Of a stretch of DNA of 64,000 nucleotides, positions 47,932 through 64,000 are shown in pieces (the first letter of the stretch is position 1; each line of letters starts with the position of its first letter). The notes below the pieces were generated by a model, which made no database searches, was not told where the DNA came from, and saw only the letters and a list, made by a program, of their open reading frames with translations. Source of the DNA: Salipiger thiooxidans (GTDB lineage Bacteria; Pseudomonadota; Alphaproteobacteria; Rhodobacterales; Rhodobacteraceae); the NCBI RefSeq assembly GCF_900102075.1, contig NZ_FNAV01000008.1, forward strand, positions 186,001 through 250,000, read 5' to 3'. The position numbers and the translations under genes were made by a program.

Positions 47932-48714
47932 ATGGATCTGGAGCTTCGCGACAAGCGCGTTCTCATCACCGGAGCATCGCAGGGCATCGGCGAGGGCATT
48001 GCCGAAGTCTTTGCCGAAGAGGGCGCGATCCTGCACCTTACCGCCCGCAGCGCCGACAAGCTGGAGGCCATCGCGGAGCGGCTGCGCAAGGCCCATGGCG
48101 CCGAGGTCTCGGTCTACCCGATGGATCTGACCGGGGGCGAGGCGCCGATCGCGCTGGCCGAGCAGGTGGGCGACATCGACATCCTGATCAACAACGCGGG
48201 CGTCATCCCGGGCGGCAACCTGTGGTCCACGGACGATGCCGCATGGCGCGAGAACTGGGACCTGAAGGTCTTCGGCTACATCAACATGTGCCGGGTGTTC
48301 TACGAGCGGATGAAGACGGCCGGAGGCGGCGTCATCATCAACGACATCGGCAACGCGGGCGAGAACTTCGACCCCGACTACATCGCGGGCACCACCGGTA
48401 ACGCCAGCCTCATGGCCTTTACCAAGGCGCTCGGGGGCAGGGCGCTTGACGACAACATCCGCGTGGTGGGCGTGAACCCCGGCCCCGTCGACACCAGCCG
48501 CATCTACAAGCTGCTCAAGCGCCGCGCCGTCGACTGGTACGGCGACGAGAGCCGCTGGGAGGAGCTGCTCGGCACCTATCCGCTGAAGCGCCCTGCCAAG
48601 GTGCGCGAGATCGCCGACCTGATGGCCTTCCTCGCCTCGGAGCGGTCGGGCTACACCACCGGCGCGATCTTCACAGTCGACGGCGGCATCACCTCGCGGG
48701 CCTCGATCATCTGA
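47932..48714 (+). CDS. SDR-fold oxidoreductase lacking the YxxxK motif
   Basis: 260 residues from ATG 47932. The Rossmann motif ITGASQGIGEGIAEVF and ILINNAGVIPGG are intact, as is the end GAIFTVDGG. At the active site the usual Y-x-x-x-K aligns to AGTTGNASLMAFTKAL, that is Gly for Tyr and Asn for Lys, and the catalytic Ser region reads NDIGNAGENF. Either this subgroup uses another acid/base or it has a non-dehydrogenase role. First gene of the GntR-linked operon; its stop overlaps the aldehyde dehydrogenase start. Confidence 0.85.
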   Translation: MDLELRDKRVLITGASQGIGEGIAEVFAEEGAILHLTARSADKLEAIAERLRKAHGAEVSVYPMDLTGGEAPIALAEQVGDIDILINNAGVIPGGNLWSTDDAAWRENWDLKVFGYINMCRVFYERMKTAGGGVIINDIGNAGENFDPDYIAGTTGNASLMAFTKALGGRALDDNIRVVGVNPGPVDTSRIYKLLKRRAVDWYGDESRWEELLGTYPLKRPAKVREIADLMAFLASERSGYTTGAIFTVDGGITSRASII

Positions 48715-50243
48715 TGCCCGACACCGTCGACACCTTCCGCCCCACGCTGGACCCGATCCCTGCACAGGCGTTTCCGCTGCACTACGGCGGGCACTGGCAC
48801 GGCGGGATATCGGGCGCGCGCCGCGCGGTGCGCCGCCCGGCCACTGGCGTCGAGGCCTGGAGTGTCGCCGAAGCCTCTGCCGCCGATGTCGACGCCGCCT
48901 GCGCCGCCGCGGCCCGTGCCTTCCCCGACTGGGCCGCGCTCGACAGTGACGAGCGCGGCCACCTTCTTCGGGCGCTGGCGGGGATCCTGCGGGCCCGCAT
49001 GGGGCAGCTTGCGGCGCTCGAGGCGGCGGTCACCGGCCGTCCGATCCGCGAGATGCGCGCCCAGATGGGCCGCATCCCCGAGTGGTTCGAATATTTCGCC
49101 GGCATCGCGCTGGGGCTCGAGGGCGGATCGAACCGGGTCAAGGGCGGGTTCCTGACCTACACCCGGTACCGGCCCTACGGCGTCTGCGCGCTGCTGACGC
49201 CGTGGAACCACCCGATCCTGATCCTCGTCAAGAAGCTGGCCGCGGCGCTTGCCGCCGGCAACACGGTGGTGGTGAAGCCCTCGGAACTCGCCCCGATCAC
49301 GCCGCTTCTGCTGGCGGAATGGGCGGTCGAGGCGGGCATTCCCAACGGTGTCATCAACGTGGTGACCGGCGGCGCCGAGGCCGGGGCCGCGCTGGTCGCC
49401 AACGAACACGTCTCCCACATCGACCTGACCGGAGGCACCGCGACCGGCAAGATCGTCGCCAGGGCCGCGGCCGAACGCATGGTGCCCTGCACGCTGGAGC
49501 TGGGCGGCAAGACGCCGGTGGTGGTCTTCGACAGCGCAGAGCTCGACGAGGCGGTGGCGGGGGCGCTCTTCGCGGGCTTCGTGGCGGCGGGGCAGACCTG
49601 CGTCTCGGGCAGCCGCTTCCTCGTGCAGCGCGGGGTCTACGACGCCTTCGTCGCGAAGCTCTCCGAACGGGTGGACGCGCTGCGTCAGGGCGACCCGGCG
49701 CTGGTCGAGACCGACATCGGCCCGGTGATCTCGGCCGCCTCGCGCGACCGCTGCATGGGCGTCATCGAACGCGCCAGAGAGACCGAGGCGCGGCTGGTGG
49801 CGGGGGGCGTCCTGCCCGAGCTGCCCGCACACGTCGCGGGCGGTTTCTTCGTTCCGCCCACGGTCTTTGCCAACGTGTCGCCCGAAAATGCGCTGTTCCG
49901 GGACGAGATCTTCGGCCCCGTGGTGTCGGTCACGCCCTTCGACACCGAGGACGAGGCGGTGCAACTCGCCAATGACGGGCCCTACGCGCTTGGGGCCTCG
50001 GTCTGGACCCGCGACATCCTGCTGGCGCATCGCGTGGTGGACCGGCTCAAGGCGGGCGTGGTCTGGATCAACGACCACCACAAGAACGACCCGCGCTCGA
50101 TCTGGGGCGGTTCGGGCGAAAGCGGCTACGGCCACGAGAACGGCTGGGACGCGCTGAAGGGCTACCTGATCAAGGGCTCGGTCACCGTGCGCACCACCGA
50201 GGGCTTTGGCGACTGGTTCGCCGGAGGCAACCGTTATGGCTGA
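48714..50243 (+). CDS. Aldehyde dehydrogenase (NAD(P)-dependent)
   Basis: 509 residues. TPWNHPILILVKKLAAAL (oxyanion Asn and cofactor Lys region), LELGGKTPVVVF (general-base Glu) and AGQTCVSGSR (catalytic Cys) are all present, with ALGASVWTRD near the end. Oxidises an aldehyde to the acid. Placed right after the SDR and just before an ABC importer; it overlaps the ATPase start by 8 bp. Confidence 0.94.
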   Translation: MPDTVDTFRPTLDPIPAQAFPLHYGGHWHGGISGARRAVRRPATGVEAWSVAEASAADVDAACAAAARAFPDWAALDSDERGHLLRALAGILRARMGQLAALEAAVTGRPIREMRAQMGRIPEWFEYFAGIALGLEGGSNRVKGGFLTYTRYRPYGVCALLTPWNHPILILVKKLAAALAAGNTVVVKPSELAPITPLLLAEWAVEAGIPNGVINVVTGGAEAGAALVANEHVSHIDLTGGTATGKIVARAAAERMVPCTLELGGKTPVVVFDSAELDEAVAGALFAGFVAAGQTCVSGSRFLVQRGVYDAFVAKLSERVDALRQGDPALVETDIGPVISAASRDRCMGVIERARETEARLVAGGVLPELPAHVAGGFFVPPTVFANVSPENALFRDEIFGPVVSVTPFDTEDEAVQLANDGPYALGASVWTRDILLAHRVVDRLKAGVVWINDHHKNDPRSIWGGSGESGYGHENGWDALKGYLIKGSVTVRTTEGFGDWFAGGNRYG

Positions 50244-62411: not shown

Positions 62412-63290
62412 ATGCACATCACCACCAGGGACGGCGTGAAGCTCTATGTCGAGGAAGCCGGGCAGGGCACGCCCATCCTCTTCATCCACGAATTCGGCGG
62501 CAACTACGACGCGTGGGAGCCGCAGATGCGCCGCTTCTCCCGCCGCCATCGCTGCATCACCTACGCGGCGCGGGGTTACAAGCCTTCGGACATTCCCACC
62601 GATCTCGAGCAGTATTCCCAGCGCATCGCCGTCGAGGACGCGCTGGCGGTGCTCGACGCACTGGGGATCGAGAAGGCGCATATCGTGGGCCTCTCGATGG
62701 GCGGTTTCGCCACCGCGCATTTCGGCCTGATCGCCCCCGAGCGCGCCCTGTCGCTGACCATCGCGGGCGCGGGCTATGGCGCCGAGAAGCAGTACGAGGA
62801 GTATTTCCGCGGTGTCTCGCTCTCGGTTGCCGAGAATTTCGAGACCAGAGGCGCCAAGGAGTTTTCCAAGATCTACGGCCTCGGCGCCAGCCGGGTGCAG
62901 TTTCAGAACAAGGACCCGCGCGGCTGGGCCGAGTTCTCGGAGCGGCTGTCGAACCACGACGATCTCGGCGCGGCGCTGACCATGCGCGGCGTGCAGGCGC
63001 GGCGGCCGTCGCTCTACGATCTCGAGGCCGAATTCGCGCGGATGGAGGTGCCGACGCTGGTGATGACCGGCGACGAGGACGACCACTGCATCCAGACCTC
63101 GGTCTATCTCAAGAAGACCATCCCCGCCTGCGGGCTGGCGATCTTCCCCAAGACCGGCCACACGCTGAACCTTGAGGAGCCCGAGCTCTTCAACCAGCTG
63201 CTGGCCGAGTTCCTCGCACAGGTCGAGGCCGGGGCCTGGACGAAGCGCGACCCGCGCGCCGACCCCGGCCAGGTGATGCGCACCACATGA
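62412..63290 (+). CDS. Alpha/beta hydrolase
   Basis: 292 residues. HEFGGNYDAWEPQMRRFS (oxyanion region), nucleophile Ser in IVGLSMGGFATAHFG, acid in TGDEDDHC and His in KTGHTLNLEEPE form the triad. Similar enzymes hydrolyse enol-lactones or ring-opened amides such as those from pyridine/pyrimidine degradation. Its stop overlaps the next start by 4 bp. Confidence 0.9.
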   Translation: MHITTRDGVKLYVEEAGQGTPILFIHEFGGNYDAWEPQMRRFSRRHRCITYAARGYKPSDIPTDLEQYSQRIAVEDALAVLDALGIEKAHIVGLSMGGFATAHFGLIAPERALSLTIAGAGYGAEKQYEEYFRGVSLSVAENFETRGAKEFSKIYGLGASRVQFQNKDPRGWAEFSERLSNHDDLGAALTMRGVQARRPSLYDLEAEFARMEVPTLVMTGDEDDHCIQTSVYLKKTIPACGLAIFPKTGHTLNLEEPELFNQLLAEFLAQVEAGAWTKRDPRADPGQVMRTT

Positions 63291-64000
63291 GCGTGGAGAT
63301 CGACGGCGACCGGCTCTGGTCGCGGCTCATGGAGATGGCCCGGATCGGCGGCTTCGGGGAGGGCGGCGTCAACCGGCAGGCGCTCTCGGACGAGGAGCAC
63401 GCGGCCTGGGCGCAGATGATCGCATGGGGCGCCGAGATCGGGCTGGAACCCTCGACCGACGCGGCCGCCAACCTGTTCCTGACGCTTCCCGGGCAGGACC
63501 GCAGCCTGCCGCCGCTGATGGCGGGCTCGCATCTCGACAGCCAGCCCACCGGCGGGCGCTTTGACGGCGTCTTCGGCGTGCTGGCCGCGCTCGAGGCGGT
63601 GACCGCGATGGTCCGCGCCGGGCACCGGCCCGCCCGCGACGTCATCGTGGTGGCTTGGATGAACGAGGAAGGCTCGCGCTTCGCGCCCGGCATGATGGGC
63701 TCCGAGGTCTTCGCGGGCGTGCGCGGCATCGGCGCAGTGCGCGCGGCGCAGGACGCGGACGGCATCCGCTGCGGCGACGAGATCGACCGCATCCACGCCG
63801 CCTTCCCCGCGGTGCCCGAGCGCCCGCCCTTCGTGCCGCTTGCCTATGTCGAGCCGCACATCGAGCAGGGCCCGGTGCTCGAAGCGGTGGGCGTGCCCAT
63901 CGGCGTGGTCAGCGGCATCCAGGGCAAGATCACCACCGAGGTCACGCTGACCGGGCAGGCGGGCCATGCCGGCACCGAGCCGATGACGGCGCGGCGCGAC
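63287..64000 (+). CDS. M20-family Zn hydrolase (N-carbamoyl-amino-acid hydrolase/allantoate amidohydrolase type), partial
   Basis: 238 residues are visible; the gene runs off the right edge. Bimetal-site residues: GSHLDSQPTGGRFDG (His, Asp), WMNEEGSRFAPGMMGSEVF (Glu pair) and EPHIEQGPVLE (His). This is the ureidopropionase/carbamoylase/allantoate branch that removes carbamoyl or ureido groups. The start ATG 63287 overlaps the hydrolase stop. It argues that the pathway ends in an N-carbamoyl or ureido intermediate, as in pyrimidine- or hydantoin-like ring breakdown. Confidence 0.9.
   Translation, partial: MSVEIDGDRLWSRLMEMARIGGFGEGGVNRQALSDEEHAAWAQMIAWGAEIGLEPSTDAAANLFLTLPGQDRSLPPLMAGSHLDSQPTGGRFDGVFGVLAALEAVTAMVRAGHRPARDVIVVAWMNEEGSRFAPGMMGSEVFAGVRGIGAVRAAQDADGIRCGDEIDRIHAAFPAVPERPPFVPLAYVEPHIEQGPVLEAVGVPIGVVSGIQGKITTEVTLTGQAGHAGTEPMTARRD

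Follow-up and report, generated by a model that had tools for sequence, protein, structure and literature searches.

What could a bacterium gain from a run of genes that joins two importers, a nucleoside hydrolase, an amine dehydrogenase and a whole set of further catabolic enzymes? The question is raised by the right-hand end of a 64,000-nucleotide stretch of the 5.87-Mb genome of Salipiger thiooxidans (assembly GCF_900102075.1, contig NZ_FNAV01000008.1, positions 186,001 to 250,000; hereafter the window), in which open reading frame (ORF) lists and Pfam/NCBIfam scans define 18 collinear genes on the + strand from 47932 to 64519, the last of them crossing the window edge, with a divergent GntR gene ahead. 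In order they encode an SDR dehydrogenase, an aldehyde dehydrogenase (ALDH), the ATPase and permease of an ABC importer, two NMT1-type proteins (the substrate-binding protein SBP1 and a protein 2), a DAO-family subunit, a Fer2_4 2Fe-2S subunit, an FAD/NAD protein with a BFD-type 2Fe-2S domain, a PPC protein (Pfam PCC), ECF components S, T, A1 and A2, a nucleoside hydrolase, an aminotransferase, an alpha/beta hydrolase and an M20 amidohydrolase. With the start codons that we chose, nine of the 17 junctions overlap, one abuts and seven leave gaps of 1-51 bp. We conclude, with a probability of about 0.58, that this operon is catabolic and induced by its substrate, a nitrogen heterocycle that the cell takes up in two forms, free and as the riboside, a pyrimidine-type base being the most likely class of substrate. 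The protein families, all of them known, are those named in an earlier prediction made from the letters of the window (the original prediction below), and we place the operon in nucleoside/N-heterocycle catabolism, not in a categorically new kind of system.

Are these genes kept together elsewhere, as the original prediction needed them to be? An alignment of six aminotransferases, run against the genomes of 84,980 species, gave 355 relatives, of which the best 80, together with five plasmid loci, make up the 85 loci in which all counts were made, with tblastn at thresholds that we set once. The aminotransferase is present in all 85, the SDR in 83, the alpha/beta hydrolase in 82 and M20 in 81, and 79 loci have this core of four complete; an NMT1-type substrate-binding protein accompanies it in 81/85. 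The six loci with an incomplete core are two in which the SDR lies just beyond the fetched stretch (L029, L030), two short contigs (L098, L105), one with M20 in two pieces (L023) and one with no match to the alpha/beta hydrolase or M20 at our threshold (L076). The core was found across many soil, plant-associated and marine bacteria. A less biased sample gave the aminotransferase in 4/349 genomes of the phylum, the source genome included, and the other three carriers (G282, G313, G412) all have the core with an NMT1 ABC importer.

The arrangement of the window, with the DAO trio, recurs in five of the 85 loci, those of Paracoccus sp. IB05 (L029), Tropicimonas sp. IMCC34043 (L030), Rhodobacter sp. 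SGA-6-6 (L031), Rhizobiales bacterium Y(2018) (L083) and Aestuariivirga sp. YIM B02566 (L099). Homologs of the small 2Fe-2S gene are found in 5/5 of these and 0/80 of the others (E 1e-4); PPC, the nucleoside hydrolase and ECF S are each present in 4/5, L031 being without all three. The upstream ALDH, ABC genes and GntR fall outside the fetched stretch in four of the five and were found in place in L143-L146. In L143 and L144 the SDR gene lies upstream; in L083 and L099 it adjoins the aminotransferase gene. Because the S component was detected in only 1/121 genomes of the order and 4/349 of the phylum, the window-type operon must be rare; the PPC protein was detected in 5/121 genomes of the order. 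Among the other S-component loci of the 349-genome sample, a match to the nucleoside hydrolase (27%) accompanies the ECF genes in L130 (G433), no such match lies in the 18 kb of L129 (G347), and L128 (G365) starts at a contig end and is cut. Against plasmids, the 25 matches listed for the DAO subunit included only distant oxidases (24-28% identity). On this comparative evidence the 18-gene operon is a conserved unit that represents one form among a broader family of loci, a setting that had been missing from the original prediction.

What, then, varies around the core? An NtaA/DmoA-type LLM monooxygenase (TIGR03860, 529.3 bits for that of N. galegae) was detected in 69 loci, the DAO trio in five and a TauD-type dioxygenase (254.8 bits to its family) in three; no locus had two of these together and in eight none was seen. 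Of those eight, L037, L046 and L067 are perhaps cut before the monooxygenase gene, L105 is a 4-kb contig, and L024-L027 are more distant plasmid loci, L027 having another luciferase-family gene and a flavin reductase nearby. A class II aldolase-family gene follows the same division, occurring in 68/69 monooxygenase loci, 3/3 TauD loci, 0/5 DAO loci and 3/8 loci without a seen oxidase. The second variable element is the nucleoside hydrolase, present in 25/85 loci, four of which have an ECF S component and 21 a sugar-type ABC importer, while neither importer was found in any of the 60 loci without the hydrolase. Judged by these patterns, the fixed core is surrounded by two exchangeable modules.

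Because hydrolase and second importer strictly go together (25/25 versus 0/60), we favor a reading in which both a base and its riboside are imported, and this pairing fits the proposal in the original prediction of heterocycle or riboside uptake followed by base release. The NMT1-type ABC importer would bring in the free base and the ECF importer its N-riboside, which the nucleoside hydrolase would cleave to ribose and base. The DAO, 2Fe-2S and FAD/NAD trio would then oxidize a C-N bond of an amine-bearing arm of the base, and the aldehyde formed would pass to the ALDH; the amine oxidation proposed earlier is plausible. To our knowledge, dehydrogenases of the DAO/SO_alpha type act only on C-N bonds of the amine kind, and because of this limit the job of the whole oxidase module would be oxidative C-N cleavage, if the NtaA- and TauD-type enzymes do the same net job. 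In other loci the trio would be replaced by the NtaA-type FMN monooxygenase or the TauD-type dioxygenase, each of them accompanied by a protein of the class II aldolase family; an aldolase-family gene with both oxygenases and an ALDH with the dehydrogenase would fit different products of attack at one site. The core would break down what remains of the base.

Several points weigh against this scheme. All of its reactions are inferred. Exchange of oxidases is no proof that they catalyze the same reaction, and the lack of the class II aldolase from the DAO type may mean that it follows a different route. The riboside part is dispensable, since L031 is without PPC, ECF and hydrolase, and PPC-ECF sets without a nucleoside hydrolase occur in Salmonella, Paracoccus yeei and G347, which shows that importers of this ECF family do not always go with nucleosides. 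Given a frameshift in the T gene, either the window copy of the ECF importer may be dead or the assembly wrong. No riboswitch names the ligand, an Rfam search at gathering scores having given 0 matches in the window and 14 loci. Finally, 80 of the loci were chosen by aminotransferase score and cut at 10 kb, and many belong to close relatives within Bradyrhizobium; the counts thus lack independence and describe patterns rather than separate events.

How might such an operon be induced? The palindrome TGTATACA occurs once in the window, between the GntR gene and the first operon gene, with 0.03 occurrences expected by chance, and exactly once in each of L031, L143, L144, L145 and L146, always at that same place; all six dehydrogenase-type operons, that of the window included, therefore have a single copy at their head. 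The 85 loci (1.79 Mb) contain eight occurrences, each lying no more than 400 bp from where an SDR, GntR, ABC ATPase, SBP1 or aminotransferase gene starts. These positions make the palindrome a good candidate for the GntR operator, through which GntR would repress the operon until the substrate or an intermediate is present. Most of the monooxygenase-type loci are without it; a common palindrome was also sought for them and none was convincing, TGTATACA being found in 5/44 GntR-type intergenic stretches and other palindromes being commoner. The single GntR gene of the original prediction holds up, as a divergent gene of the FCD type lying just left of position 47932, where that prediction began. 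The features of the operon are collected in Table 1.

Table 1. Genes and putative control site of the 18-gene operon, in window coordinates.
Feature	Position	Strand	Basis and remarks
GntR(FCD) regulator, divergent	46997..47773	-	Pfam FCD 89.6, GntR 61.7 bits; longest ORF, true start probably internal; homolog heads operon in L031, L143-L146
Putative GntR operator, palindrome around TGTATACA (47829-47836)	47825..47840	.	Sole TGTATACA in 64 kb
SDR dehydrogenase	47932..48714	+	NF004779 395.6 bits, cut-off 261
Aldehyde dehydrogenase (ALDH)	48714..50243	+	Aldedh 511.6 bits; present in 5/5 dehydrogenase-type relatives
ABC importer ATPase	50236..51018	+	ABC_tran 118 bits
ABC importer permease	51011..51838	+	BPD_transp_1 100.6 bits
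SBP1, NMT1-type substrate-binding protein, signal-peptide-like N-terminus	51886..52875	+	NMT1 132.1 bits
NMT1-domain protein 2, no signal peptide, presumably cytosolic	52927..53856	+	NMT1 93.8 bits
DAO-family FAD subunit of amine dehydrogenase	53858..55039	+	DAO 163.6 bits; GTG start assumed
2Fe-2S small subunit	55036..55293	+	Fer2_4 64.4 bits
FAD/NAD subunit with BFD-type 2Fe-2S domain	55290..56714	+	Pyr_redox_2 59.4, Fer2_BFD 43, SO_alpha_A3 32.1 bits
PPC (Pfam PCC) domain protein	56711..57214	+	PF03479 89.7 bits
ECF S component, CD3073-like	57252..57824	+	PF12822 34.7 bits; NF045596 130.5 bits, under cut-off 180
ECF T component, frameshift near 58300	57828..58618	+	CbiQ 50.7 bits over first 157 aa; rest in another frame
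ECF ATPase 1	58609..59457	+	ABC_tran 91.5 bits
ECF ATPase 2	59454..60272	+	ABC_tran 93.7 bits
Nucleoside hydrolase	60273..61235	+	IU_nuc_hydro 258.8 bits; DTDTAGDD motif intact
PLP (pyridoxal phosphate) aminotransferase, PRK06225 type	61249..62388	+	NF004870 478 bits, cut-off 351
Alpha/beta hydrolase	62412..63290	+	Abhydrolase_1 81.6 bits
M20 hydantoinase/carbamoylase-type amidohydrolase	63287..64000 (to 64519 outside window)	+	TIGR01879 360.6 bits, cut-off 204, whole protein

Two parts of the operon differ from what the original prediction had described. Its complete ECF transporter is interrupted in the window copy, where the T reading frame meets a stop at 58301 after 157 residues and homology resumes in another frame to about 58618. 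The gene is an intact ORF of 261-262 residues in L029, L030, L083 and L099, and the frameshift may be a sequencing error or a real mutation. The original prediction also spoke of two NMT1-like proteins; the N-terminus of protein 2 lacks a signal peptide, both in the window and in its five relatives, so that only SBP1 looks secreted to the periplasm and protein 2 is likely, in contrast to SBP1, cytosolic. Its role may be that of a ligand sensor, a carrier or an enzyme, THI5 being a cytosolic enzyme of the NMT1 fold. The best matches to its profile outside the source genome fall in exactly G282, G313 and G412; the top one (G412, 125 bits) belongs to a neighboring ABC set some 9 kb away from the core, and the next three (G282, G313, G412) are importer genes of core loci. 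The gene for protein 2 adjoins the amine dehydrogenase genes in six operons.

The operon is followed, at 64939, by an ABC-F protein gene with no visible link to it. Elsewhere in the window, a 1202-residue ORF (35247-38855, - strand) combines a TonB receptor plug and barrel with a long N-terminal part without a Pfam match.

The S, T, A and A genes with a nucleoside hydrolase also adjoin each other in Enterococcus raffinosus and haloarchaea. The haloarchaeal plasmids (L019 3907-14125; L022 3793-14089) hold nucleoside hydrolases and the ECF importer together with SDR, FAH-type and mandelate-racemase-type genes, possibly for nucleoside use with oxidative ribose catabolism. In the Salmonella record (L018 9532-12584), epd and tkt flank the five-gene PPC-ECF S-T-A-A set, which in Paracoccus yeei (L017 11507-14725) is found next to hydantoinase/acetone-carboxylase-like genes. 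The Salmonella record is labeled plasmid 2 and looks chromosomal, holding serA, rpiA, pgk, fbaA and tkt.

What can the enzymes themselves tell us about the substrate? The aminotransferases of all 85 loci have a Lys at the aligned place of the alpha-carboxylate-binding Arg of class I enzymes (which we take to be R386 in AspAT numbering) and so depart from the class I pattern for alpha-amino acids; the substitution hints at an unusual amine donor. The nucleoside hydrolase of the window belongs to the IU_nuc_hydro family and keeps, as do 24/24 labeled copies, the DTDTAGDD form of the DxDxxxDD metal motif. Before the conserved DGM, the residues are FFG in the four copies linked to ECF and MHG in those linked to ABC importers, and the two groups may make different contacts with the leaving group. 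M20 scores within the hydantoinase/carbamoylase subfamily (360.6 bits, TIGR01879 cut-off 204), a membership that by itself leaves its substrate unfixed. The ring opening and decarbamoylation of the original prediction are hypothetical steps. The S component is related to the CD3073 family, not a filed member of it (NF045596, 130.5 bits, cut-off 180), and the available part of PMC11448449 makes no mention of CD3073.

Could the heterocycle be thiamin or its pyrimidine, as the original prediction guessed? With base-degraded thiamin, formylaminopyrimidine or hydroxymethylpyrimidine as the compound, SBP1 would bind the pyrimidine, M20 would strip off an acyl group, an aldehyde would be made from the aminomethyl arm by the aminotransferase or the amine dehydrogenase, and the SDR and ALDH would oxidize that aldehyde. 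This guess is weakly helped by the structures that the SBP profile finds in the PDB, all distant relatives, in which 4nmy (127.5 bits), the formylaminopyrimidine-binding protein 3ix1 (71.2), THI5 (48.2) and THI13 (45) stand above SsuA (35.1) and a taurine binder (27.9). A table in PMC10586155 lists 4NMY as thiamin-bound. The ranking weakly favors a pyrimidine-like ligand, although few NMT1 ligand complexes have been solved and the nearest structure is biased accordingly. The riboside step does not fit, since thiamin contains no ribose and yet a nucleoside hydrolase and a second importer occur together in 25/85 loci. Nor did the Pfam/NCBIfam scans match TenA or any other thiamin enzyme among the 18 genes, or the Rfam search a TPP (thiamin pyrophosphate) riboswitch in the window and 14 loci; the deformylase YlmB is of another M20 subfamily. 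We therefore regard thiamin catabolism as unlikely, at perhaps one chance in five.

Did two unrelated functions simply come to share a promoter? A base-catabolic set (SDR to FAD/NAD protein, aminotransferase, alpha/beta hydrolase and M20) might have received an inserted nucleoside-salvage set (PPC, ECF and hydrolase) with another substrate, and both halves do occur apart, L031 holding the base-catabolic set alone and Salmonella and Paracoccus yeei the PPC-ECF set alone. However, another importer and the same hydrolase family have joined the same core, in an independent layout, in 21 loci that are not of the window type, and there is no locus with hydrolase and no importer, or the reverse. A merely shared promoter thus seems improbable to us.

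A more specific proposal concerns those wobble-uridine nucleosides from tRNA that bear an aminomethyl arm together with a 2-thio or 2-seleno group: the hydrolase would free the base, a TudS-like protein, where present, would remove sulfur or selenium, the amine oxidase would cut the secondary amine, and the aminotransferase and ALDH would oxidize the arm. A TudS-related gene (CD3072 family) occurs in 7/26 loci with a nucleoside hydrolase or DAO and 0/59 others, and adjoins M20 in L029-L031. TudS enzymes have thiouracil/thiouridine compounds as substrates, according to a part of PMC10611767. In Enterococcus gilvus (L110 1001-8546), a CD3072 TudS-related gene and a CD3073 ECF S gene directly follow selD-yedF-selB-selA, which suggests import of a selenium compound and, with the distribution of the TudS-related gene, hints at a thio or seleno base. 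Against this, we found no CD3072 match in the window genome, the third cluster cysteine of TudS is Ser in 7/7 proteobacterial TudS-related copies, both family scores are under their cut-offs (113.4 bits against 130 for NF045597 in the TudS-related proteins of the relatives, and 130.5 against 180 for the S component), and most loci are without the hydrolase, a dedicated importer for a rare free base being hard to explain. It is thus quite improbable that the operon serves these nucleosides. The same slight odds attach to the wider picture, in which proteobacteria draw nutrition from modified pyrimidine nucleosides that RNA turnover releases (e.g., aminomethyl-2-thio- or 2-selenouridines) by importing the riboside, removing ribose and, where a TudS-like gene is present, sulfur or selenium, cutting the secondary-amine arm with any of three unrelated oxidases and finishing with the SDR-aminotransferase-hydrolase-M20 core. 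The TudS-related proteins of L029 and L030 have about 100 extra residues past the NF045597 match, and in L030 and L031 the gene is followed by an ORF of 450-459 residues without a Pfam match, which in L031 overlaps the preceding ORF. Sulfur salvage, in which the NtaA-type enzyme and the TudS-like protein would release the sulfur of a thio compound in the manner of the known pathways for acyl-cysteine conjugates, can draw on the NtaA/DmoA family including C-S cleaving enzymes (with the TIGR03860 match already given) and on the TudS-like gene in seven loci, and is very improbable, as the dehydrogenase trio that replaces the monooxygenase is of an amine-oxidizing type (SO_alpha_A3, DAO) and 78/85 loci have no TudS-like gene.

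If uptake and catabolism of a heterocycle and its riboside is the correct reading, many alpha- and some gammaproteobacteria would own a dedicated route for such a compound that is now annotated as unrelated genes. Three unrelated oxidases and two unrelated riboside importers swapping around one core provide a strong, testable clue to the chemistry, and identification of the ligand would assign functions at once to the CD3073-like ECF importer, the PRK06225-type aminotransferase, the PPC protein and a large set of NMT1-type ABC importers.

How does the operon compare with systems already known? In the open-licence PMC literature we found no described pathway with its gene set, in agreement with the original prediction, although several pathways share parts of it. 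Queuosine salvage (nucleoside hydrolase QueK, ECF S QueT/QrtT) also combines an ECF importer with a nucleoside hydrolase; here, however, the S component matched only PF12822 and NF045596 (CD3073), and the 18 genes include catabolic genes instead of a radical-SAM QueL or a tRNA enzyme. The remaining comparisons draw on general background. Thiamin-pyrimidine salvage (ThiXYZ-YlmB-TenA) shares an NMT1/THI5-type ABC importer and an M20 amidohydrolase, but the M20 of the operon is of the hydantoinase/carbamoylase type, its 18 genes, to which the search was confined, gave no match to the TenA thiaminase II families, and it has in addition the nucleoside hydrolase, second importer, aminotransferase and amine dehydrogenase. 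The alpha/beta hydrolase, carbamoylase-type M20 and NMT1 ABC importer are reminiscent of the Rut and reductive uracil pathways; unlike these, the 18 genes include neither RutA, RutB and RutC nor dihydropyrimidine dehydrogenase and dihydropyrimidinase, and the monooxygenase of other loci scores 66.1 bits as RutA (cut-off 498.3) versus 529 as NtaA. The adjacent DAO, 2Fe-2S and FAD/NAD-BFD subunits resemble the opine and D-hydroxyproline dehydrogenase trios (OoxAB, LhpBEF), except that they stand in a base/riboside context in which we found no proline or opine genes. There is a further likeness to the vitamin B6 degradation of Mesorhizobium, which employs similar kinds of enzymes: an aminotransferase, an SDR, an alpha/beta hydrolase and, as in other loci of this family, a class II aldolase-type protein and a flavin monooxygenase. 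The families differ in detail (the comparison is one of enzyme kinds), and to these shared enzymes the operon adds M20, the nucleoside hydrolase and the NMT1 and ECF importers.

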